From a virus: 29,009 nucleotides of DNA. Position 1 is the stretch's first letter; every line of letters begins with the position of its first letter. Shown one piece after another: positions 1,159-28,529 of this stretch. Position numbers and translations under genes: made by a program. The DNA lies in the IMG/VR virus record IMGVR_UViG_3300047316_000111, positions 1 through 29,009 of that record; one strand, written 5' to 3'. A model generated the notes under the pieces. It made no database searches and had not been told where the DNA came from. It saw nothing but the letters and a program-made list of their open reading frames with translations.

Positions 1159-2100
1159 TTAGCCGGTGAGCGCAAGTCCTAATTCTGAGATTTTTTGCAG
1201 CCCTGGCTTCTCGCGTCCAGGGACCAGAACCCCGCGCTCGGCCAGGATGGCGCGCCAGTCGACCGGGATCCCGTCCCGCTCCGAGACCAGCGGCGCGGCG
1301 ACCGCGTGGCGCTCAGGGGCAGCCAGGGCGGTTTCCGCCACGGTTTCGGGGGTCTTGGCTGGCGGCGCTGCGGCGATCGGGTGGAGCAGCCGCATTTCGG
1401 TCTGGTGGCGGGCTTCCCACGCTTCCACCACCCCGCGCTGGCAGAACCCGAGCGTCACGGGGATCCGCCGCACGACCATCGTTTGACGGCGGACCTCCAC
1501 CACGCACCAGTCAGGATCGAGACCGGCGGCGAGCCATGCCGTCGCCGCGGTCACGCTGCGGCGCTGGTCGCTCCGGATCGGGAGGTAGTCCCCGCCGAAC
1601 CTGAACGCGCCGACCTCGTTCATCGCGGCGATACACCGAGCGGCGAGCGGGGCCGCTGTTCCCGTTCCTGAGTTGTCCACATTCAACCCTAGGGTTGTTT
1701 CCCTAGGTAGTTCCCTAGGGTTAATAGGTAGTGCGGCCATCGGTGCCACGGTGGCGCCACGGTCTTGCCATGGTTTCGCCACGGTCTCGCCACGCGCCAG
1801 ACTGTCGCAAAACGAGACAGTTGTCCCGTCCCGTGTGGATATTATGTGGATAAGTCCAAGGCGCTGGAGGTGAAGCAGGAAGCGCCGAACGCGTTGATGG
1901 GTCCAGCCCCATCGGGCGGACCAGCTGCGGTCAGTCCCCGCCGGTTGCGCGAGAAGGTCCGCGAACGCCGCCGCACGATGCGGGGCCAGGAGATACGGGT
2001 GCGGTGTCAGGGGTGGACGTGCAAAGTCCCGATGGCGGCTCTGGACAGCCCACCGTGCGGGAACACCCCGAAAGGAGATCGCACGATGGCAGAGCCACAC
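1159..2100 (-). CDS. Phage replication protein with winged-helix domain and internal origin
   Basis: 313 residues from the only usable in-frame start, a GTG at 2100 (an in-frame stop lies just upstream); no strong ribosome site is seen, so the exact start is uncertain. Residues about 42-98 look like the winged-helix DNA-binding domain of phage replication initiators, with the phrase WSARWGWTHQRVRRFLLHL followed by a short strand. A Pro/Ala-rich linker leads to a C-terminal part I do not recognise. The DNA encoding about residues 80-145 carries the iterons, CCCTAGG repeats and DnaA boxes described separately, an arrangement like lambda O, where the initiator gene contains its own origin. No helicase or loader gene is present in the window. 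A transcription-factor role is the main alternative. Confidence 0.65.
   Translation of the reverse strand: MWLCHRAISFRGVPARWAVQSRHRDFARPPLTPHPYLLAPHRAAAFADLLAQPAGTDRSWSARWGWTHQRVRRFLLHLQRLGLIHIISTRDGTTVSFCDSLARGETVAKPWQDRGATVAPMAALPINPRELPRETTLGLNVDNSGTGTAAPLAARCIAAMNEVGAFRFGGDYLPIRSDQRRSVTAATAWLAAGLDPDWCVVEVRRQTMVVRRIPVTLGFCQRGVVEAWEARHQTEMRLLHPIAAAPPAKTPETVAETALAAPERHAVAAPLVSERDGIPVDWRAILAERGVLVPGREKPGLQKISELGLALTG
1673..1681 (+). other. DnaA-box-like site 1
   Basis: TTGTCCACA differs at one base from the DnaA consensus TTATCCACA. It lies at the left side of the repeat cluster inside the replication gene. On its own it could be chance; its weight comes from the two further boxes at the other side of the iterons. 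Confidence 0.4.
1685..1721. repeat. Three CCCTAGG repeats
   Basis: CCCTAGG occurs at 1687, 1701 and 1713, each flanked by short AT-rich spacers. The first lies inside a perfect 12-bp palindrome, AACCCTAGGGTT (1685-1696). In the minus-strand reading frame this forces CCT-AGG, CTA and GGG-TTG codons, unusual for a gene otherwise full of GC-ending codons, which suggests selection on the DNA itself. It probably forms part of the replication origin, perhaps the region that binds or is melted by the initiator. Confidence 0.6.
1745..1796 (+). repeat. Five origin iterons with 11-bp period
   Basis: GCCACGGT recurs at 1745, 1756, 1767 (as GCCATGGT), 1778 and 1789 (as GCCACGCG), each exactly 11 bp after the last. 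Eleven is not a multiple of three, so the repetition cannot come from a repeated peptide; it places each copy one helical turn apart, as in iterons bound by a replication initiator. It lies inside the replication gene, next to CCCTAGG repeats and DnaA boxes. Confidence 0.75.
1834..1853 (-). other. Two tandem DnaA boxes
   Basis: On the minus strand, TTATCCACA (1845-1853) is an exact DnaA box and ATATCCACA (1834-1842) differs at one base; both have the same orientation and lie two bases apart. They flank the iteron array on its right. An inverted repeat ACTGTC/GACAGT (1801-1806, 1816-1821) separates them from the iterons. This suggests that host DnaA helps open the phage origin. Confidence 0.6.
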
Positions 2101-3344: not shown

Positions 3345-3362
3345 GTTGTAACGAGCTTACGA
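3345..3362. promoter_or_regulatory. Palindromic operator candidate, copy 4 (degenerate)
   Basis: GTTGTAA-CGAGC-TTACGA, one mismatch from the perfect inverted repeat seen at 1140 and 9537. It lies in the 63-base gap between the nuclease gene and the Ig-domain gene, 45 bases before the start of the latter. The left half-site is complete. Confidence 0.5.
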
Positions 3363-3363
3363 A

Positions 3364-3933
3364 CTACCGGCGCGCCTTGGTGCCGTAGTAACTGAGGAGC
3401 TCGGCGCGCATGGCTTCCCATCCCTCGACCGCGCACGTGTAGAGGCCGCACCGCTCGTACCAGTGGCTCCATTCCATCTGCCGCGGCGACAGCTGCCCGG
3501 CGCCGACGCGTTTCAACTCGCCGCGGAATCCGGTGTAGCGGCCCCGCGGCACGTCCCACCCGATGTCGGCGTAGCCGATGCGGACGCCCTCGGCTTTCAT
3601 CATGGCCGCGGTGGCAATGCTCCGGTACCCGCCGTTGGGGACCGCGTAGATCCACGCGAAGTCGGGATGCTTGAACGCATAGCCGGTCTCGGGCTCGCCC
3701 TTCTTGCCGTCGATCCACGTGAAGAGCGCCCGCTGCTCCTGGTGCTCAGTTGGCGATTTCAGGTGGCGCCCCTTCTCGCTCTTCCGCGGCGCGGGAGTCC
3801 CGATCGGGTCGACGGTGAGGTGACCGCGGAGAACACGCGGCGACGTCATCTGGCGCACCGTCTCTTCCGCTTTTTCACGTGGAACGCCCTGCTCGATCAT
3901 CGAGCGGACCATCGCCTCAGCGCTCAGGGACAC
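3364..3933 (-). CDS. VRR-NUC family nuclease
   Basis: The sequence matches the VRR-NUC (PD-(D/E)xK) fold: Glu63 in a helix (SPTEHQEQRAL), a VPNGG turn at 98-102, Asp123 in the IGYADI strand, Glu139-Leu-Lys141, and Gln residues at 147 and 152 in the following helix. These nucleases cut branched or structured DNA, and phage copies are thought to process recombination or replication intermediates, which fits the RecT/YqaJ module upstream. An N-terminal helical extension of about 55 residues precedes the nuclease domain. The GTG at 3933 overlaps the upstream gene by 17 bases; an ATG at 3912 (residue 8) is an equally good start. Confidence 0.8.
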   Translation of the reverse strand: MSLSAEAMVRSMIEQGVPREKAEETVRQMTSPRVLRGHLTVDPIGTPAPRKSEKGRHLKSPTEHQEQRALFTWIDGKKGEPETGYAFKHPDFAWIYAVPNGGYRSIATAAMMKAEGVRIGYADIGWDVPRGRYTGFRGELKRVGAGQLSPRQMEWSHWYERCGLYTCAVEGWEAMRAELLSYYGTKARR

Positions 3934-4237
3934 GATGACCAGGCGGGAGGTTGAAGTCGAGGAAGAAATGCGTCACCCGACCGCTGGACGTTCCGAAATA
4001 TGCCTGGAGCGCGTCGAACACCTCCTGGCGCCCCACCAGACCGAGACCCGGCAACCCGAACAGGTCGTACAGCGTCATTTGGCAGAGATCGTCGACGGTG
4101 CGCCGTTCCGCGATATCGTGTCTCTTACGATGGTAAAACTCGGATCCGCCAGTGTAGACGATCGCGTTTTTCGTGCGGGTGCTGAGGTTCAGCGCGTCGA
4201 TCTGATCGGTGAGCGGGTGATTTTTGAGCCGTGTCAT
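3917..4237 (-). CDS. RNA polymerase alpha-CTD-like protein
   Basis: A 106-aa protein whose middle aligns without gaps, over its main blocks, to the C-terminal domain of bacterial RNA polymerase alpha: IDALNLSTRTKN corresponds to the VDDLELTVRSAN helix, then a TVDDL block, and PGLG (63-66) matches PNLG of the helix-hairpin-helix. Arg21, Asn24 and Glu72 sit where E. coli Arg265, Asn268 and Glu302 contact DNA, but the Lys298/Ser299 positions are Val and Gly. The first loop has several extra residues. With no alpha-NTD it cannot assemble into polymerase as alpha does; it may bind DNA or transcription factors. ATGA overlap with the gene before it. Confidence 0.7.
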   Translation of the reverse strand: MTRLKNHPLTDQIDALNLSTRTKNAIVYTGGSEFYHRKRHDIAERRTVDDLCQMTLYDLFGLPGLGLVGRQEVFDALQAYFGTSSGRVTHFFLDFNLPPGHRVPER

Positions 4238-9536: not shown

Positions 9537-9554
9537 GTTGTAATAGAATTACAA
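9537..9554. promoter_or_regulatory. Palindromic operator candidate, copy 2
   Basis: GTTGTAA-TAGAA-TTACAA, a perfect 6-bp inverted repeat in the divergent gap between the XRE-like regulator (minus) and the plus-strand membrane protein gene. At 10 bases from the regulator ATG it must overlap that gene's transcription start or promoter; it is 37 bases before the plus-strand ATG. Confidence 0.7.
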
Positions 9555-11447: not shown

Positions 11448-11846
11448 CTATTCTACCCCTGCCTCGATCGCCGGACCAGGTGTTGCGGTCGTTGCTGGCG
11501 GACGGGAAGATTCGACCAGCCGCCGGAGCGTGTCGGTGTCCTCCCCGATGATCCGATCCCACTGTTTCAGCGCCTCGCCGATCTGGTCACCAATGGCGAG
11601 AAATTGCGGGATCAGCGTGTCGAGCGGCTTTAACTGGTTCTTGAGCCGCTCGAGCTTGCTGTCGAGGCTCGGATCGTGCGGCGCCAGCTGCGCGTCGAGC
11701 AGGAGCTCGTGATAGACGGCCATCTGCCGCCGGAGCGCGGCGCCGACTTTCATAATCGGTCGCAGCTGGTCGTGGACGTCGCGCTTGCACGCGTGCGTCG
11801 GCTTGGTGCCCTCGTCGTAGAGCGCTTGAATTTCGGCGGCGATCAT
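11448..11846 (-). CDS. Hypothetical 132-aa helical protein between tail tip and holin
   Basis: A soluble, mostly helical protein (residues about 1-110, with heptad-like Leu spacing around LDSKLERLKNQLKPLDTLI) and a Pro/Thr-rich end. GAGGA precedes the ATG by about five bases. The position between the tail-tip gene and the holin is where phages often keep tail-fibre chaperones or lysis regulators. No family is recognised, so either role is open. Confidence 0.6.
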   Translation of the reverse strand: MIAAEIQALYDEGTKPTHACKRDVHDQLRPIMKVGAALRRQMAVYHELLLDAQLAPHDPSLDSKLERLKNQLKPLDTLIPQFLAIGDQIGEALKQWDRIIGEDTDTLRRLVESSRPPATTATPGPAIEAGVE

Positions 11847-11860
11847 GGAGTCCTCGCGGG

Positions 11861-14608
11861 TTAGAAGTTGATCAGCGGGTCGGTGGTCGTGTACGTCACG
11901 TAGAACCCGCCGAGCGCCGCGTCCGCATCGACCGGCGTGACACCAGCAAAGCCGAGGATCCCCTGGACGAAATACTGCTCGCCCGTGTTGGTGATGTTCG
12001 GCGTGTCGGCGAGCGTTTGCCAGTCGAGCGCGCTAGTGGTGACACCGCTCCCGATGATGGCATAGCCGCCCGGTCCAAAGATCCGGCCCATGATGAACGC
12101 GACGGAATGCGCGCCGGTCGTCGTGTGGAGATACACCTCGTGCGCGACATTGGTGACCACCGCGCCCACCGGGATCGTGACCAGCGATTCGAACCCGTAG
12201 TTGGTATTCGTGACCGCGCCGACGACGTTCAGCTGCGTGCTTCCCGCGTTGAAGTTGAAATTCGACAGCGGGCGATAGCTGCCGACCGAGTAGTGCGCGG
12301 TGATCGTGTTCGTGTAATTCTGGTACGCAACCCGGATGTGGATGCTCGGCCCGGTGATCCCGTTGGCGCCCGCGGCGGTGTACGGGACGACGGTCATGTA
12401 GAGCGTCTGGCCGAACGTGAGCGTCCCACCGGCCACCACGCTGAACGTGCGGCCATTGACCACGGTCCCGGTTGAGATCGTGCTGGAGTCGCTCGGGTAC
12501 GCGCTGGTGCTCGTGAGGTACTTGGCGGACGTGTAGCTCGGCGGGAGGTCCGCCGTCGCCGACCAGCTGCCGTTCGCGTCGACCGCGCCGGTCCCCTGCG
12601 GAATGCCGGACTGGAACGGGACGGGGTTGCTGCCGATCGTATAGCTCACGCTGGAGATTGAGGACAAGTCCTGGGTGGCGCCCCCGTACACGTTGAACGC
12701 GGGGAACTTGAAATATACGGTTTGGCCCGCGGTGCCCTGGGGGAACGGGATCCGGGCGATCGCGTCGTCGATGAACACGAACCGCACGCCGCCGGAATGG
12801 CTCGCCGGGATGGTGGAGTTGTACAGCCCGCGGTAGAGCGTGGTGAGGTTGTAGAGGCCGGTCCCGGTGAGCGTGGCCGTCTCGTATGCGACGAACTCCT
12901 GATCCACGAGACAGAGCGGGGTGAGCGCGGCGAAGTCCGCCGCGGAGAACGTCGACAGCGTCCGGCCCGAGGCGCTGATATCGACCGCGAGCGTGTGCGT
13001 GCTATCGGTCGACGGCCACGCGGCGTTCGTGGCGAGCGAGGCCGTGGTGGTGCCGTATGCGGCCTTGCCGACGATCGTCCCGACTTTGGTGAACGTGGTG
13101 TTGTCGGTGGAGATCCACACGTCGCAGCCGCCCCAATTCGCGCCGCCGGTCGCGCCGATCATAATGTCGAGCGGCGACTTCGCCAGCGGCGTCGGCGCCT
13201 CGAAGATGACCGGCGTCGACGTGTTGCCCGGGTCGACGTTCGTGGCGGGCATCGAGCCGCTCGCGCTGCCGGTGGTGTAGAGCGCCGCGGTGGCGGTCCC
13301 GAGCGGCCAGTCCTCCGCCACCACCTCGAACCCCTGCTCGCTGTCGAGCTCGGTCACCGAGACGATCCGCACCGGCGTCTGACTGAGCCCGAGCCCCGCG
13401 TCGGTCAGCGTGACCAGGTCCATCGGCTCCAGGAGCGAGTATTTCCACCCGATGATAAACGTGTAGGTGTTCCGCACCGACTGTTCGCGCTGGCCGCGGA
13501 TCGTGGCGACCTGTTGGGCCACCGCGGACGACTTGATCGAGTGCAGCTGGAGCGTGGACAGCGGGAGCGGGCCGTACGCGATGGCCGCGGCCTGGGCGGT
13601 GTAGGTATACGTGCTGGTGTTGTAATCGTAATTCCGGTCCTCATATTCGACCGGGATCTGGTTGTACGCTTTCGCCGGATCCGTGCGCGCCACCAGGATC
13701 GGGTCGAGGTCGCCGTCGTGCGCCTGGTCGCCGCTGGTGGCCGCCAGGTCCGACGCGCTGTTCCGCATGAAGTCGCCGTCGCCCAGGTTGTAGAGCGGCG
13801 TCGTGTTCGGGGTGAACGTGTGGCCGTTCCCCGAGAGCGCGGTGTCGCCGTACGGGACGAATTTGAGCGCACCATCGGACCAGACCGCGGCGGTGTTGCT
13901 GATCTCGAGGAGCTCGTTCAGCTGGTCCCGCGCCGGTACCTGAGACGAGAACACGGGGCTGGCGAAGAGTCCCGCCGCGGCGCAATAGTCGGTCATCGGC
14001 GTCATCGACGCGAGCAGCGACGACGGGAAGTTGGCGCCGTACTGTGCGTTCGTGAGGTAGTCCGAAATGATGGCCGCGGGGTTGGCGTCCAGGATGCCAC
14101 CGCCGAACGGGAGGAACCCCTGCACCTCCCACGCGTACTGCGACAGCTGCGCGTTCGGCATGGTGACCGCCGGGTTGGCGACGTACGCTGTGAACTGATA
14201 CGGGACCGCCTCCGCCGGGTAGTTGCTCGACAGGTACGACCAGGGCGACTGTGACGACGTGCCGGTGAAGAGCGACCAGCCGTTCGTCGCGTAGTAGGTG
14301 GCGAAGTCGACCTTCTGGTCCTTGTCGTGCCAGACCCATCCGATCCCGCCGATCGGCCCTTCACAGAGCCCGAGCGCGATCGGGGCGACGTAGTCCTGGC
14401 CGCCCGACTTGCCGGAGCCCTTCCCGGATCCCTTGCCGCCGCTCTTCACCGGCACCGGCTGTTTCGGCATGTGGATCAGGTTGGCGGCGATGCGCGCCCA
14501 CCCGTACACGATCGGGATCGGCAGCCCGTACACGGACGACTGAACAGAAAACCCGGCGATCTTTGGTTTCTTGACCTTGATCCCGAGCACGTGCATGAGG
14601 CTAGACAT
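11861..14608 (-). CDS. Tail-tip / host-specificity protein (gpJ-like)
   Basis: 915 residues. The N-terminus has the YG-x-PIP-x-VYG phrase of tail-tip proteins, followed by a Gly/Ser/Lys linker (about 52-67). A middle part with ARDQLNELLEISNTAAVWSDG resembles the Phage-tail_3 / GTA tail domain, and later EPMDLVTLTDAG and LCLVDQEFVAYETA match strands of gpJ-like baseplate hubs. The last 250 residues are beta-rich and FN3-like and are expected to face the receptor. It caps the distal tail and determines host range. The start at 14608 has GGAG nine bases upstream and overlaps the peptidase gene by eight bases; a longer upstream reading frame is not used. Confidence 0.8.
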   Translation of the reverse strand: MSSLMHVLGIKVKKPKIAGFSVQSSVYGLPIPIVYGWARIAANLIHMPKQPVPVKSGGKGSGKGSGKSGGQDYVAPIALGLCEGPIGGIGWVWHDKDQKVDFATYYATNGWSLFTGTSSQSPWSYLSSNYPAEAVPYQFTAYVANPAVTMPNAQLSQYAWEVQGFLPFGGGILDANPAAIISDYLTNAQYGANFPSSLLASMTPMTDYCAAAGLFASPVFSSQVPARDQLNELLEISNTAAVWSDGALKFVPYGDTALSGNGHTFTPNTTPLYNLGDGDFMRNSASDLAATSGDQAHDGDLDPILVARTDPAKAYNQIPVEYEDRNYDYNTSTYTYTAQAAAIAYGPLPLSTLQLHSIKSSAVAQQVATIRGQREQSVRNTYTFIIGWKYSLLEPMDLVTLTDAGLGLSQTPVRIVSVTELDSEQGFEVVAEDWPLGTATAALYTTGSASGSMPATNVDPGNTSTPVIFEAPTPLAKSPLDIMIGATGGANWGGCDVWISTDNTTFTKVGTIVGKAAYGTTTASLATNAAWPSTDSTHTLAVDISASGRTLSTFSAADFAALTPLCLVDQEFVAYETATLTGTGLYNLTTLYRGLYNSTIPASHSGGVRFVFIDDAIARIPFPQGTAGQTVYFKFPAFNVYGGATQDLSSISSVSYTIGSNPVPFQSGIPQGTGAVDANGSWSATADLPPSYTSAKYLTSTSAYPSDSSTISTGTVVNGRTFSVVAGGTLTFGQTLYMTVVPYTAAGANGITGPSIHIRVAYQNYTNTITAHYSVGSYRPLSNFNFNAGSTQLNVVGAVTNTNYGFESLVTIPVGAVVTNVAHEVYLHTTTGAHSVAFIMGRIFGPGGYAIIGSGVTTSALDWQTLADTPNITNTGEQYFVQGILGFAGVTPVDADAALGGFYVTYTTTDPLINF

Positions 14609-22234: not shown

Positions 22235-23749
22235 TTACGCTGGCGCGATGTTCGTGATCGCTCCGAACGCCGGGAGGAAGTACCCGATCAGCACCTCGTC
22301 GGCGTACACCCCGAACTCGCGCTTACGAGTGCGGAGCGGCCAGATGGTCTGGTAGTAGTCCTGGCGGTACCGGATCTCTAGCACGTTCCCGAGCCCGCTC
22401 ATCGGATAGGCTGCGCCGATGTCCTTGCTCGTGAACATGATCGTGCCGGGTGGAACCCAGGGATGCACGCGGACGCGCACCGACTGGTTGGTGTACTTGT
22501 TCATCAGCGAGCCGACGACCACGCCGCCCGTGATGTCGTAGTTGGCCGTCGACGCGTCGGCGTTGAACCGGAACAGCGGCGCACCGCCGCCCGCGATCAC
22601 GATCTTGTTGATCGATCCCGCTTCCTGGCTGTTCACCCAAATGGTGTCGGGCGAGAGCCGGTAGTTGTCCCAAAACGACTTGAACGCGGTGTTGATCTCG
22701 ACCACACCGCCCGCGCTGTCCGTGGTCAACGGCGTGCCGACGCCGTCTGTTCCTGTCGCCAGCGTGGCGAGGTACGCACCCGTCCCCGCGAACGCGGAGG
22801 TGTACAGGATGCCGTCGAACGTGTACGACGTGCCGCCCACCACGTTCTTGCTGTTGTCCGTGGCCGCGAGGGTTTGGAAGTCCTGGCGCGCAGCGGTGAT
22901 CAGCGCGGTGTTGAAATTCACCGAGTTGATCGTGGTGATCTGCTGGATGTACTGGTGCGTGTTGCTGCTCCCTAGGTACCAGGCGTACGCGATCGCGCCG
23001 GTTACCGGTACCACGTGCGCGGTGACGCGCTGCACCGCGGTTCCGGCGTTGAGCGTGACACCCGCCGAGAGGACCGATGGCGCCGCGGTCCCACCGTACA
23101 ACGTGTCGGTCGACCCGTCCGCGTTCGTGCGGGAGATCGTCTGCACGACTCCGGCGGTCACGGTGGCGTTCAGCCAGCCGTCGTGCGTCAGCGCGACACA
23201 CCCGACGTAGTACGTCCCGTCCGAGAGCGCGCCAGCGGTGGCGGCTCCGGCGGCGGTCGGCGTCGGCGTGGTGCCGAGCGCGATCGACTGGTTGCCGCCG
23301 ACGATCATCTGCTCCTCAGAGATCATCAGCGAGCGGAGCGCGGCCTGGACAGCGCGAGCGTCCGCGTCGTCGTACCCTTCCGCGGCGTACTCGGCTTCGA
23401 ACGACGCGTAGTTTTCGAACCCGATGCCGATGTAGGACGAGGTCCGCGTGACGACGGTCTGCGAGATGTACGCGTTCCGGTTCCCTTCCGACACACCAGC
23501 CGGGATCCGGGTGGTGTTGATGCCGGTGATGGCGCGCCAGTTGGTGGCCGTGCCGCCGTCACCCTTCACCCGCGGGATCTCGTTGCGGAGCGGCGTGACG
23601 ACCTTCCCCCACGGCGTCAGGAACAGCGCCGGACGCTGGAGGTCATAGTTGATCAGGCCGGTGGCCTGGGTGATCCCGCCAGCTTTGGCGATGTCGACCG
23701 GAGTCATCATCGCCTTGCGGATGGCGTCGAGCGTTTCAGCGGTGGTCAT
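22235..23749 (-). CDS. Major capsid protein (HK97 fold) with Ig/FN3-like insertion
   Basis: 504 residues, longer than the roughly 300-400 common for the fold. Residues 1-150 and about 290-504 look like HK97 capsid (N-arm, TPLRNEIPRV, an acidic FEAEYAAEGYDDADAR helix, and a C-terminal VEINTAFKSFWDNY to VRVRVHPWVPPG block). Between about 155 and 285 is a beta-rich segment with DGTYYVGCVALTHDGW and VTGAIAYAWYLGSS, like an FN3 or Ig domain that would project from the shell. GGAGA lies nine bases before the ATG. Confidence 0.82.
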   Translation of the reverse strand: MTTAETLDAIRKAMMTPVDIAKAGGITQATGLINYDLQRPALFLTPWGKVVTPLRNEIPRVKGDGGTATNWRAITGINTTRIPAGVSEGNRNAYISQTVVTRTSSYIGIGFENYASFEAEYAAEGYDDADARAVQAALRSLMISEEQMIVGGNQSIALGTTPTPTAAGAATAGALSDGTYYVGCVALTHDGWLNATVTAGVVQTISRTNADGSTDTLYGGTAAPSVLSAGVTLNAGTAVQRVTAHVVPVTGAIAYAWYLGSSNTHQYIQQITTINSVNFNTALITAARQDFQTLAATDNSKNVVGGTSYTFDGILYTSAFAGTGAYLATLATGTDGVGTPLTTDSAGGVVEINTAFKSFWDNYRLSPDTIWVNSQEAGSINKIVIAGGGAPLFRFNADASTANYDITGGVVVGSLMNKYTNQSVRVRVHPWVPPGTIMFTSKDIGAAYPMSGLGNVLEIRYRQDYYQTIWPLRTRKREFGVYADEVLIGYFLPAFGAITNIAPA

Positions 23750-25365: not shown

Positions 25366-27729
25366 CTAACCCTCGCCGCCGTCCTCAGCCGCGGGCACGT
25401 CGGCGACCAGCGAATCGTCGACGACCGGGAGCACGCTGCATTCGCAGTTGGGGTGCGCGGGCGGTGCATCGTCGCCGGAGGGGAACACGTCATCGAGCGC
25501 GATCACCCCCTCGTCGGCGTTGGCCTGGCATTCCGGGCACGGGTCGTCGTCGGGATCCCAACTCTTGCCGGTCACCACGCCGGAGGCGCGGAACCCGATC
25601 ATGGTCCCCGCCACGTCGGCGTTGGCCGTCTCGGTGCGGGCGATCATCTGCGCTCGGGCATCGGAGAACCCGAACCCGTCCGCCATCTGTTGCGCGAGCT
25701 CGTCGTTCGTGAGCCCGTCGCGGATGGCCGCGGCGGTGAGCTCGTTCACGGCGTCCCGCGTGGTGTCGCTGACTTCCGTGATCAGGTTACCGATCCGCGC
25801 TTCCGCCCAGGCGATCGCCTCGTCGTTGGCTTGCTCCAGGAGCGCCGCGAACGCGTCGTCGGTGCCGGGGACATAGTCGCCCACGTGGTCGAGTGCGGCC
25901 TGGGCGCGTTCCGTGGCGAGCGCCTCGAGGAGTGCGCGTAGCCGCTCGCGGGCGTCATCATCCCAGGGCGTGTCCTCCAGCGCCCGGAGCGCCTGGTTGA
26001 TGTCATCTTCCGACACCTTGGCGAGTTTCTGAGCGCGGTCGCGGATCATCGCCACCACCGCTTTCCGTTGGGCGCGCAGCACGCGCCCCGCTGCAGCCCC
26101 TACTCCCCGCTGGACGCGAGCCGTGAGTTTGCGATTCGTTGGGACCGCGGGAAGTGACCTCCCGGCAGCGCTGCGCGCCGCCTTGGCGACGTCGCCTTTC
26201 GGTTTCGTCCCGGCTGGAGGTTGCGGTGCACCAGGCTTGGGTTTCCCTGGGGGCGCACCCTTTGCCGGCGGCTGTTTGCCTGTCGATGCAGGTACAGCGC
26301 CCGGTGCACCAGCGGGTAACATCGGCGGCGGTTCCGGCTCGGGCGGCTGGAGCTCGTCCAGCTGCTCGGGGGTGGCTGGCGGGAGCCCGGCCATTTCGCG
26401 GGCCTCGCCGAGCGTCAGGATCGGCTTGCTCGCGCCGGTCGTACCGCCGAAATACGAGACGATCACCTTGGCTTTCACCTCCGCGTCGACGATCTCCTCG
26501 TCGTCCCACGCGGCGCGCAAGTCAGGACGCCCGACGCGGAGCAGGAGGTCGTCGATCACGTCCTGGACGTACCCCTTGGTCGCCTCCAGCCCTTCCTCCG
26601 CCGCGGTTTCCTTGGCCGTCTCGGCGGTGGCGCGGTTGGTCTCTTTCACGAGCCCCTGGACCGGCAGCGAAAAGCAGTAGCAAATGACGCGGGCCAGCCA
26701 TTCGTCGAACTCGTTTTTGAGCACCTCCGTCTTGGTCTCGAACGGCTTCATCTGCCCGGGATAGAACCGGGCCTTGCGCCGCTCGGCGAGGTTGCCAGAC
26801 AGGAGCGAGTCCCACCATTCCTGCGCCTGGCGGATCTGGTCGGGGTTCCACGTGTCCGGGACGCCGATCATCATGTCGGGGACGGTGCCGCTCGTGTAGT
26901 AGTTGAGCACCGACAGCTGGCGGTTCAGCGCGATCGTGACGATCCCGACGACCTGCTCCACCCGCGAGAATCCGTACATGCGATTCGATCGCGGGTTGTC
27001 CATGTAATACGCGAGGTCTTCCGTCGTGTATTCGACGGACGGGATCCCCTTCAACACTTGCTGATAGGCCGGGAGCGGCGGGACTGGCGTGCGCCCCTGG
27101 TTGTCGATTAACAGCTTGATCAGCGCGGGGTCGATCGTCTCGAATAGCACGCCGCTTCCGCTCGGGCGGATGTACACCGCGTTCGCGTCGATGACGTAGT
27201 GATCCTCGAGGAGCTTCCCGATCCAGTTGCGCCACGTGCTGATCCCGTCCGGCTTGCGGAATATCTGCTCGAGCACCCGCGCCCCTGGGCCGCCGTCGTC
27301 GTCCTTCTCGCGCCCGACGATCTTCCACCGGAGCGCCTTCATCTGGTCCTTGCGCGTCTCGATGGCGAGCCGGAGGAGGTCGAGACCCCCCGCCGCCGGT
27401 TCCGCCAGCCGCCGGAGCATTTCAAACGAGATCGTGTTTTCGCCGGGCTCCTGCCGCGGCTGGTACGCGATGTTGACGCCGTACGGATAGTCGAACGCCC
27501 GCCCGCGGGTGCTATCTGGTGCCTGGGGAGTGAACGGCTCGAGCGGCGGGAACCATGGCCCGTCGAACCCCGAGCGCACGCCGGAGCGATTCAGCGCGAT
27601 CGCATCGAGCGCCGCGGGGTTGATCGGCTTGACGGTTCCCTCCGCGCCACGGGCCTCCCCCCTCGTGCCGGTTGGCATGTTGGGGGGGTTCCCGATCCGA
27701 GCGACACCGCCCGTTTTTGCTTGCGCCAT
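25366..27729 (-). CDS. Portal protein fused to MuF-like head protein
   Basis: 787 residues. The first 430 form a portal: EMLRRLAEPAAGGLDLLRLAIETRKDQM, the DHYVIDANAVYIRPSG wing strand, the ALNRQLSVLNYYTSGTVPD helix and LARVICYCFSLPVQ. A Pro/Gly/Lys-rich linker (about 440-510) leads to a SPP1 gp7/MuF domain with GLTNDELAQQMADGF, ARTETANADV and Cys731-x2-Cys734 with HPNCEC at 759-764, a probable metal site. Portal is the DNA channel at the vertex; MuF proteins ride inside the head. These are usually separate genes. Confidence 0.82.
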   Translation of the reverse strand: MAQAKTGGVARIGNPPNMPTGTRGEARGAEGTVKPINPAALDAIALNRSGVRSGFDGPWFPPLEPFTPQAPDSTRGRAFDYPYGVNIAYQPRQEPGENTISFEMLRRLAEPAAGGLDLLRLAIETRKDQMKALRWKIVGREKDDDGGPGARVLEQIFRKPDGISTWRNWIGKLLEDHYVIDANAVYIRPSGSGVLFETIDPALIKLLIDNQGRTPVPPLPAYQQVLKGIPSVEYTTEDLAYYMDNPRSNRMYGFSRVEQVVGIVTIALNRQLSVLNYYTSGTVPDMMIGVPDTWNPDQIRQAQEWWDSLLSGNLAERRKARFYPGQMKPFETKTEVLKNEFDEWLARVICYCFSLPVQGLVKETNRATAETAKETAAEEGLEATKGYVQDVIDDLLLRVGRPDLRAAWDDEEIVDAEVKAKVIVSYFGGTTGASKPILTLGEAREMAGLPPATPEQLDELQPPEPEPPPMLPAGAPGAVPASTGKQPPAKGAPPGKPKPGAPQPPAGTKPKGDVAKAARSAAGRSLPAVPTNRKLTARVQRGVGAAAGRVLRAQRKAVVAMIRDRAQKLAKVSEDDINQALRALEDTPWDDDARERLRALLEALATERAQAALDHVGDYVPGTDDAFAALLEQANDEAIAWAEARIGNLITEVSDTTRDAVNELTAAAIRDGLTNDELAQQMADGFGFSDARAQMIARTETANADVAGTMIGFRASGVVTGKSWDPDDDPCPECQANADEGVIALDDVFPSGDDAPPAHPNCECSVLPVVDDSLVADVPAAEDGGEG

Positions 27730-28511: not shown

Positions 28512-28529
28512 TTGTGATCGAATTACAAC
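28512..28529. promoter_or_regulatory. Palindromic operator candidate, copy 3
   Basis: TTGTGA-TCGAA-TTACAAC, one mismatch from the perfect repeat, with the GTTGTAA half complete on the minus strand. A further GTTGTAA half-site is at 28538-28544. Both lie in the 154-base gap between terminase and the next gene, otherwise without coding sequence that I can support. Confidence 0.6.

Follow-up and report, generated by a model that had tools for sequence, protein, structure and literature searches.

A probable replication origin inside a phage initiator gene: 11-bp iterons next to a predicted winged-helix domain and exchanged together with it

Main finding

The replication gene of the phage contig studied here very probably contains its own origin in the manner of lambda O, composed of helically phased sites for the winged helix-turn-helix (wHTH) domain of the encoded initiator and of boxes for the host DnaA protein. 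An origin of lambda O design within the initiator gene had been proposed in an earlier note on this DNA, and the proposal is now supported by the wHTH fold, by the joint exchange of wHTH domain and repeats between the phage and a close relative, by an 11-bp rule across a class of initiator genes, and by a covariation of helix residue and iteron base. On the best reading the locus belongs, as a variant with DnaA boxes, to a broad class that has been little described. A wider proposition has roughly even chances of being right: a widespread wHTH class would read in-gene 11-bp iterons (CGNNNCA plus four bases) by a simple code, reader and sites would form a single exchangeable cassette exchanged once here in the DnaA-box variant, and origin-targeting rivals could select for such exchanges.

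The initiator gene and its protein

The window, meaning the whole stretch analysed, is the entire 29,009-nucleotide IMG/VR contig IMGVR_UViG_3300047316_000111, which is incomplete. The features of the locus are as follows.

1159 to 2010, minus strand: gene of the replication initiator, 283 amino acids from the proposed CTG at 2010
2100 to 1159, minus strand: mechanical open reading frame of this gene, GTG start at 2100, 313 amino acids
1810 to 1983, minus strand: predicted wHTH domain, residues 10 to 67
1858 to 1899, minus strand: predicted recognition helix, residues 38 to 51, W-THQR-V-R-RFL region
1845 to 1853, minus strand: DnaA box 1, exact TTATCCACA, kept in the relative despite the replaced surrounding cassette
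1834 to 1842, minus strand: DnaA box 2, ATATCCACA, one mismatch, 11 bp from box 1 in the same orientation
1740 to 1794, minus strand: five 11-bp iterons with the core CGTGGC (GCCACG on the plus strand)
1685 to 1734, no strand assigned: CCCTAGGG repeat block, locally low in GC, candidate unwinding element
1673 to 1681, plus strand: DnaA-like box 3, TTGTCCACA, one mismatch, opposite orientation, same in the relative
1387 to 1656, minus strand: C-terminal domain, residues about 119 to 208, nearly identical in the relative
1731 to 2014, minus strand: exchanged cassette of wHTH domain and iterons, 284 bp, not aligned with the relative

The gene thus runs from the wHTH domain through the iterons and the low-GC repeat block to a conserved C-terminal half. 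All iterons, DnaA boxes and the low-GC block lie within 1159 to 2010, and in reading direction the tandem DnaA boxes come first, followed by the five 11-bp units, the CCCTAGG block and the DnaA-like box.

IMG/VR yielded a single close relative, a contig of 38 kb that is mostly 97 to 99% identical in the aligned parts. The DNA upstream of 2014 is nearly identical in this relative yet stands in a different reading frame there, so that it is probably non-coding. From this comparison the true start of the gene probably lies near 2010, with ATG in the relative and an unusual CTG in the window. The gap from 2015 to 2183 upstream of the gene is almost identical in both contigs and contains a short plus-strand reading frame (2086 to 2163, 25 codons) behind AAAGGAG; neither this frame nor the rest of the window gave a match in Rfam. 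An unsystematic reading of the open reading frame lists of both contigs brought up no helicase, primase or polymerase gene, hence use of the host machinery is likely; in this reading no P-like gene was noticed near the initiator gene either.

Elsewhere in the contig the palindrome TTGTAAN5TTACAA occurs at 1140-1156, 3346-3362, 9538-9554 and 28512-28528, two copies being exact and two having one mismatch, where 0.06 are expected. The copies are situated mostly between genes and are probably repressor operators of the phage. Capsid and portal (22235-23749 and 25366-27729) are about 40% identical to those of the Brevundimonas phages Polewnik and Strzyga. The replication genes of Polewnik are a different set, its own polymerase and helicase among them, and an initiator gene of the window type is absent from the annotations of these structural relatives.

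By computation the N-terminal part of the initiator is shown to adopt a wHTH fold, as modelled by AlphaFold2 for residues 1 to 70 with helices at 10-21, 27-34 and 38-51 and a two-stranded wing (pLDDT 77). Alignment with hhalign to the wHTH domains of 19 viral initiators yielded 97.7% and an E value of 1.6e-12. The full-length model was confident in the N-terminal part only and poor beyond residue 57 (mean pLDDT 40), so no claim is made on the fold of the C-terminal part; a Foldseek search of the PDB with this model gave winged-helix proteins with probability 1.00, the best E value being only 4.6e-3. For the C-terminal domain a role as the replisome-recruiting part is proposed. Pfam contained no family for the protein at E values up to 1 and PHROGs returned only weak matches, to a tail protein (0.017) and, over the wHTH domain, to a DnaD-like loader (E value 0.47). 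No similarity to O was seen in either collection, in agreement with the previous statement that the protein is unlike O in sequence. When viral contigs were scanned with the entire protein, with its C-terminal half and with an alignment of two rows, the one relative was the sole hit; the two-row alignment gave no hits in a scan of genomes.

The iteron array

Five iterons of one type had been reported at 1745, 1756, 1767, 1778 and 1789. These coordinates and the spacing of exactly 11 bp are right; the uniformity holds for the units at 1745, 1756 and 1778, which are exact copies of GCCACGGT, while the unit at 1767 (GCCATGGT) has one mismatch and that at 1789 (GCCACGCG) is partial, with only GCCACG in common with the others. 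On the coding (minus) strand the units read CGTGGCGAGAC / CGTGGCGAAAC / CATGGCAAGAC / CGTGGCGCCAC / CGTGGCACCGA. They are direct 11-bp units without clear internal symmetry, and Tandem Repeats Finder detects the array without guidance (1745-1794, period 11, 4.5 copies). A sixth iteron-like site, AACCGTGGCGGAAA, at 1332-1345 in the C-terminal linker has a different core in the relative and is within the range of chance.

For the null distributions the protein was kept constant and synonymous codons were either shuffled or resampled from the codon usage. The period-11 signal of the array, taken as the best 40-position autocorrelation, is 31. This value was reached by 21 of 2000 shuffles and 4 of 2000 resamplings, and by any period from 7 to 24 not divisible by three in 1 of 300 under each null. 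Taken alone, the window array exceeds the synonymous null only moderately. The 11-bp period is independent of the protein sequence, as claimed before: it is out of codon phase, and synonymous codons seldom reproduce it.

DnaA boxes and the low-GC block

A DnaA-box variant at 1673 and two tandem boxes at 1834-1853, one of them exact, had been noticed and were found again. The whole 29 kb contains seven DnaA boxes with at most one mismatch compared with 1.4 expected, three of the seven falling within the 181 bp of the proposed origin. The codons forming the tandem boxes have a probability of about 5e-5 under phage codon usage and include rare ones (CTT 1.6% of leucine, ACA 2.4% of threonine, GGA 8% of glycine codons). 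At residues conserved between window and relative, identical codons are used in 6 of 7 cases within the tandem boxes and in 10 of 23 elsewhere. The counterpart of box 2 in the relative is ATTTCCACA, with unchanged spacing.

A scan of viral contigs for tandem DnaA boxes gave more than 100 loci; as candidate relatives these were rejected, being other repeats apart from the close relative, which is the only one to read the boxes in the LIH..IST frame of a long open reading frame with a wHTH sequence upstream. Tandem repeats resembling TTATCCACAGG occur commonly in many viral contigs that are unrelated to one another, for the most part away from long genes.

Three CCCTAGG repeats are present as described, at 1687, 1701 and 1713 within 1722-1685. 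Of the bracketing of the iterons put forward previously, the part concerning the DnaA boxes stands, as these flank the array, while the CCCTAGG repeats are confined to one of its sides. The CCCTAGGG block has a GC content of 48% against 66%, placing it in the lowest 0.5% of 50-mers; it is AT-rich only in relative terms. An inverted repeat at 1685-1694/1713-1722 could form a hairpin, and single-strand DNA folding of the block gave a z value of -2.8. No GC-skew switch was seen at the proposed origin, the skew of this incomplete contig being uninformative.

An autoregulatory operator, at which the wHTH protein would repress its own gene while the origin lies elsewhere, is improbable, although phages often autoregulate their initiators and the wHTH folds matched in the PDB are mostly MarR/ArsR repressors. 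The coding region begins 216 bp before the array, which has DnaA boxes and the low-GC block next to it, the protein continues past its DNA-binding domain with a large C-terminal part, and the probable repressor operators of the phage are the other palindromes, TTGTAAN5TTACAA, mostly located in intergenic gaps.

Joint exchange of wHTH domain and iterons in the close relative

Judged by the alignment, window and relative differ by a joint replacement of DNA-binding domain and repeats as one block. The exchanged patch extends from the gene start to just before the CCCTAGG block, and across it the flanks and the tandem DnaA boxes are kept. Further patches, at 934-1083, 3796-4233 and 11488-12269, likewise fail to align with the relative and point to additional gene exchanges or indels. 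The wHTH domain of the relative is 43% identical to that of the window, and at the same place it carries five units spaced by exactly 11 bp, CCGGTCAAACC CCGGACGACCC CCGGACACTCG CCGGACACTTA CCGGACACCAT. Domain and iterons have thus changed together with retention of the C-terminus, in one pair of contigs and as a single event. Loss of the repeats in relatives keeping the protein had been named in the earlier note as evidence against its reading: the relative has indeed lost the window's repeats, but along with them the DNA-binding domain, and it carries a different pair instead, another wHTH domain with another array.

The relative's array also scores 31, which none of 2000 synonymous shuffles reached. 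This bears on the explanation of the repeats as a by-product of a repetitive linker peptide lacking any function in the DNA, which would accord with the about 1% of codon shuffles matching or exceeding the window array. Such an origin of the repeats is very unlikely in view of the relative's array, of the spacing of 11 bp out of codon phase, and of the recurrence of the same period with other sequences across phyla.

A class of wHTH initiators with in-gene 11-bp iterons

Viral contigs were scanned for three SGGACA at 11-bp spacing, the core of the relative's array, giving at least 130 matches in at least 120 stretches. Of the matches listed, 20 fall within an open reading frame that has the same wHTH motif just upstream of them; the array is always on the coding strand and in most cases follows the motif at a distance of 37 residues. 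Bacterial genomes were searched by the wHTH peptide alone, which yielded 63 loci, mostly from Alphaproteobacteria and Bacteroidota. The best period beside the wHTH sequence was 11 bp in 31 of these 63 loci and in 1 of 50 control regions; at a threshold of 22 matches out of 30, period 11 occurred in 28 loci and periods 7, 10, 13, 14, 16, 17, 19 and 20 in none or one each. The cores vary within the class (CGGGACA, CCGGACA, CGAGACA, CGATACA, CGACGCA and others), and the CGTGGC(G/A) of the window fits the shared form CGNNNC(A/G), the core CGTGGC itself being found nowhere else in the assembled set.

The window protein shares with this class a homologous wHTH domain, as seen in the above hhalign result, and an 11-bp array just past it on the coding strand. 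The CNYxKYQ motif following the wing is absent and VSFCDSLARGE stands in its place; this motif had been used to find the set and is a search criterion, not a proven requirement. DnaA boxes nearby are not a class feature, with 1 in 55 genome loci and 0 in 19 viral loci. The stretch past the iterons is low in GC in the class (36% versus 55%). In the literature searched, no description of 11-bp in-gene iterons in phage initiators was found.

In many prophage initiator genes the iterons are followed, 70 to 130 bp past the wHTH match, by purine-rich repeats, often of about 9 bp, and next by a short perfect hairpin, often with the loop TAAC (stem of at least 6 in 31 of 54 versus 33 of 108 controls). 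These are possibly a melting element and a priming hairpin. Opposite-strand SGGACA-type 11-bp arrays were seen at six loci in genes with other N-terminal sequences, and the 11-bp rule may extend beyond the wHTH family.

Another reading takes the array for a partition site (centromere) to which a wHTH adaptor like AspA or TubR binds; both adaptors coat tandem repeats, tandem phased sites suit a coating protein, and AspA-DNA was among the fold matches. This too is very unlikely. An unsystematic look through the open reading frame lists of both contigs brought up no ParA or TubZ partner, DnaA boxes are present, and the wHTH relatives sit in initiator-like genes of phages and prophages, one annotated as 'replication initiation O-like' (Bacteroides phage BS-TP2, a weak wHTH match).

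Within the class the residue x following the valine of the recognition helix (W....V-x-RFL) covaries with iteron base 5. With arginine at x, base 5 is G in 7 of 11 cases, without arginine in 0 of 43 (p 2e-6, window left out), figures which are approximate as the iteron register was assigned automatically and some arginine cases lacking G look misregistered. After clustering p was 3e-5 at 70% and 0.001 at 60%; at 50%, with 13 sequences, it was 0.13 and not significant. Window (arginine, Arg42 of the protein, and G) and relative (alanine and A) both fit. As the pair was spotted by eye before the test and some other column-base pairs ranked above it in a scan over all helix columns, the covariation should be taken as a lead, short of a proven contact.

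For the preferred reading, an origin in the initiator gene, these data would offer a rule, open to testing, by which origins could be located in many phages and prophages, namely an 11-bp period just past a wHTH domain, and a candidate protein-DNA recognition code.

Proposed mechanism

The N-terminal wHTH domain would bind the 11-bp iterons with one subunit per helical turn, all on the same face of the DNA. Binding as a contiguous filament on one face had been suggested previously; the one-face arrangement at 11-bp spacing is supported as a property of the class, and a continuous protein filament on the iterons is putative. Host DnaA would occupy the flanking boxes, and DnaA and the wHTH subunits together may put strain on the neighbouring low-GC CCCTAGGG block, the putative melting site, until it opens, whereupon the C-terminal half could bring in the host helicase and the origin become active. 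Since the reader adjoins the site that it reads, a single recombination event can exchange both and thereby alter replicon specificity, and an exchange of this kind lies between this phage and its close relative.

Comparison with known systems

The origin of lambda is located in the middle of gene O and contains four iterons, each an inverted repeat (PMC7466680). The window resembles it in the position of the origin amid the initiator gene, in several iterons beside a low-GC region, and in a protein with an N-terminal DNA-binding part and a C-terminal half, and differs from it by 11-bp direct units in place of inverted repeats, by DnaA boxes and by a protein without sequence similarity to O in Pfam or PHROGs.

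With the wHTH class the window has in common the wHTH domain, the downstream in-gene 11-bp iterons, the low-GC stretch after them and the same covariation, whereas the class is without nearby DnaA boxes and has the CNYxKYQ motif. The iteron plasmids P1, F, RK2 and pSC101 combine iterons, DnaA boxes and a low-GC block, as does the window. They have Rep_3 or TrfA initiators and longer iterons, which mostly lie elsewhere than in the gene; in the window protein no Pfam domain was found, Rep_3 included.

In RepA of the PLE satellites the N-terminal domain covaries with the origin while the C-terminus is conserved, only cognate pairs replicate, and an origin-cutting nuclease has been proposed as the selective force behind the exchange of RepA and ori; this ori is intergenic with three semi-palindromic iterons of about 30 bp (PMC8263062). 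If the present reading is true, selection by origin-targeting rivals, as for PLE versus Odn, could likewise drive wHTH-iteron exchanges. Both systems exchange DNA-binding domain and origin between close relatives and conserve the C-terminus; cognate specificity is experimentally proven for PLE, while the window pair is known from sequence. The window has the predicted reader and its sites side by side within a single gene, and between the two contigs they differ as one cassette of 284 bp. The pair is thus a clear case from nature in which replicon specificity has apparently been exchanged as a single unit.
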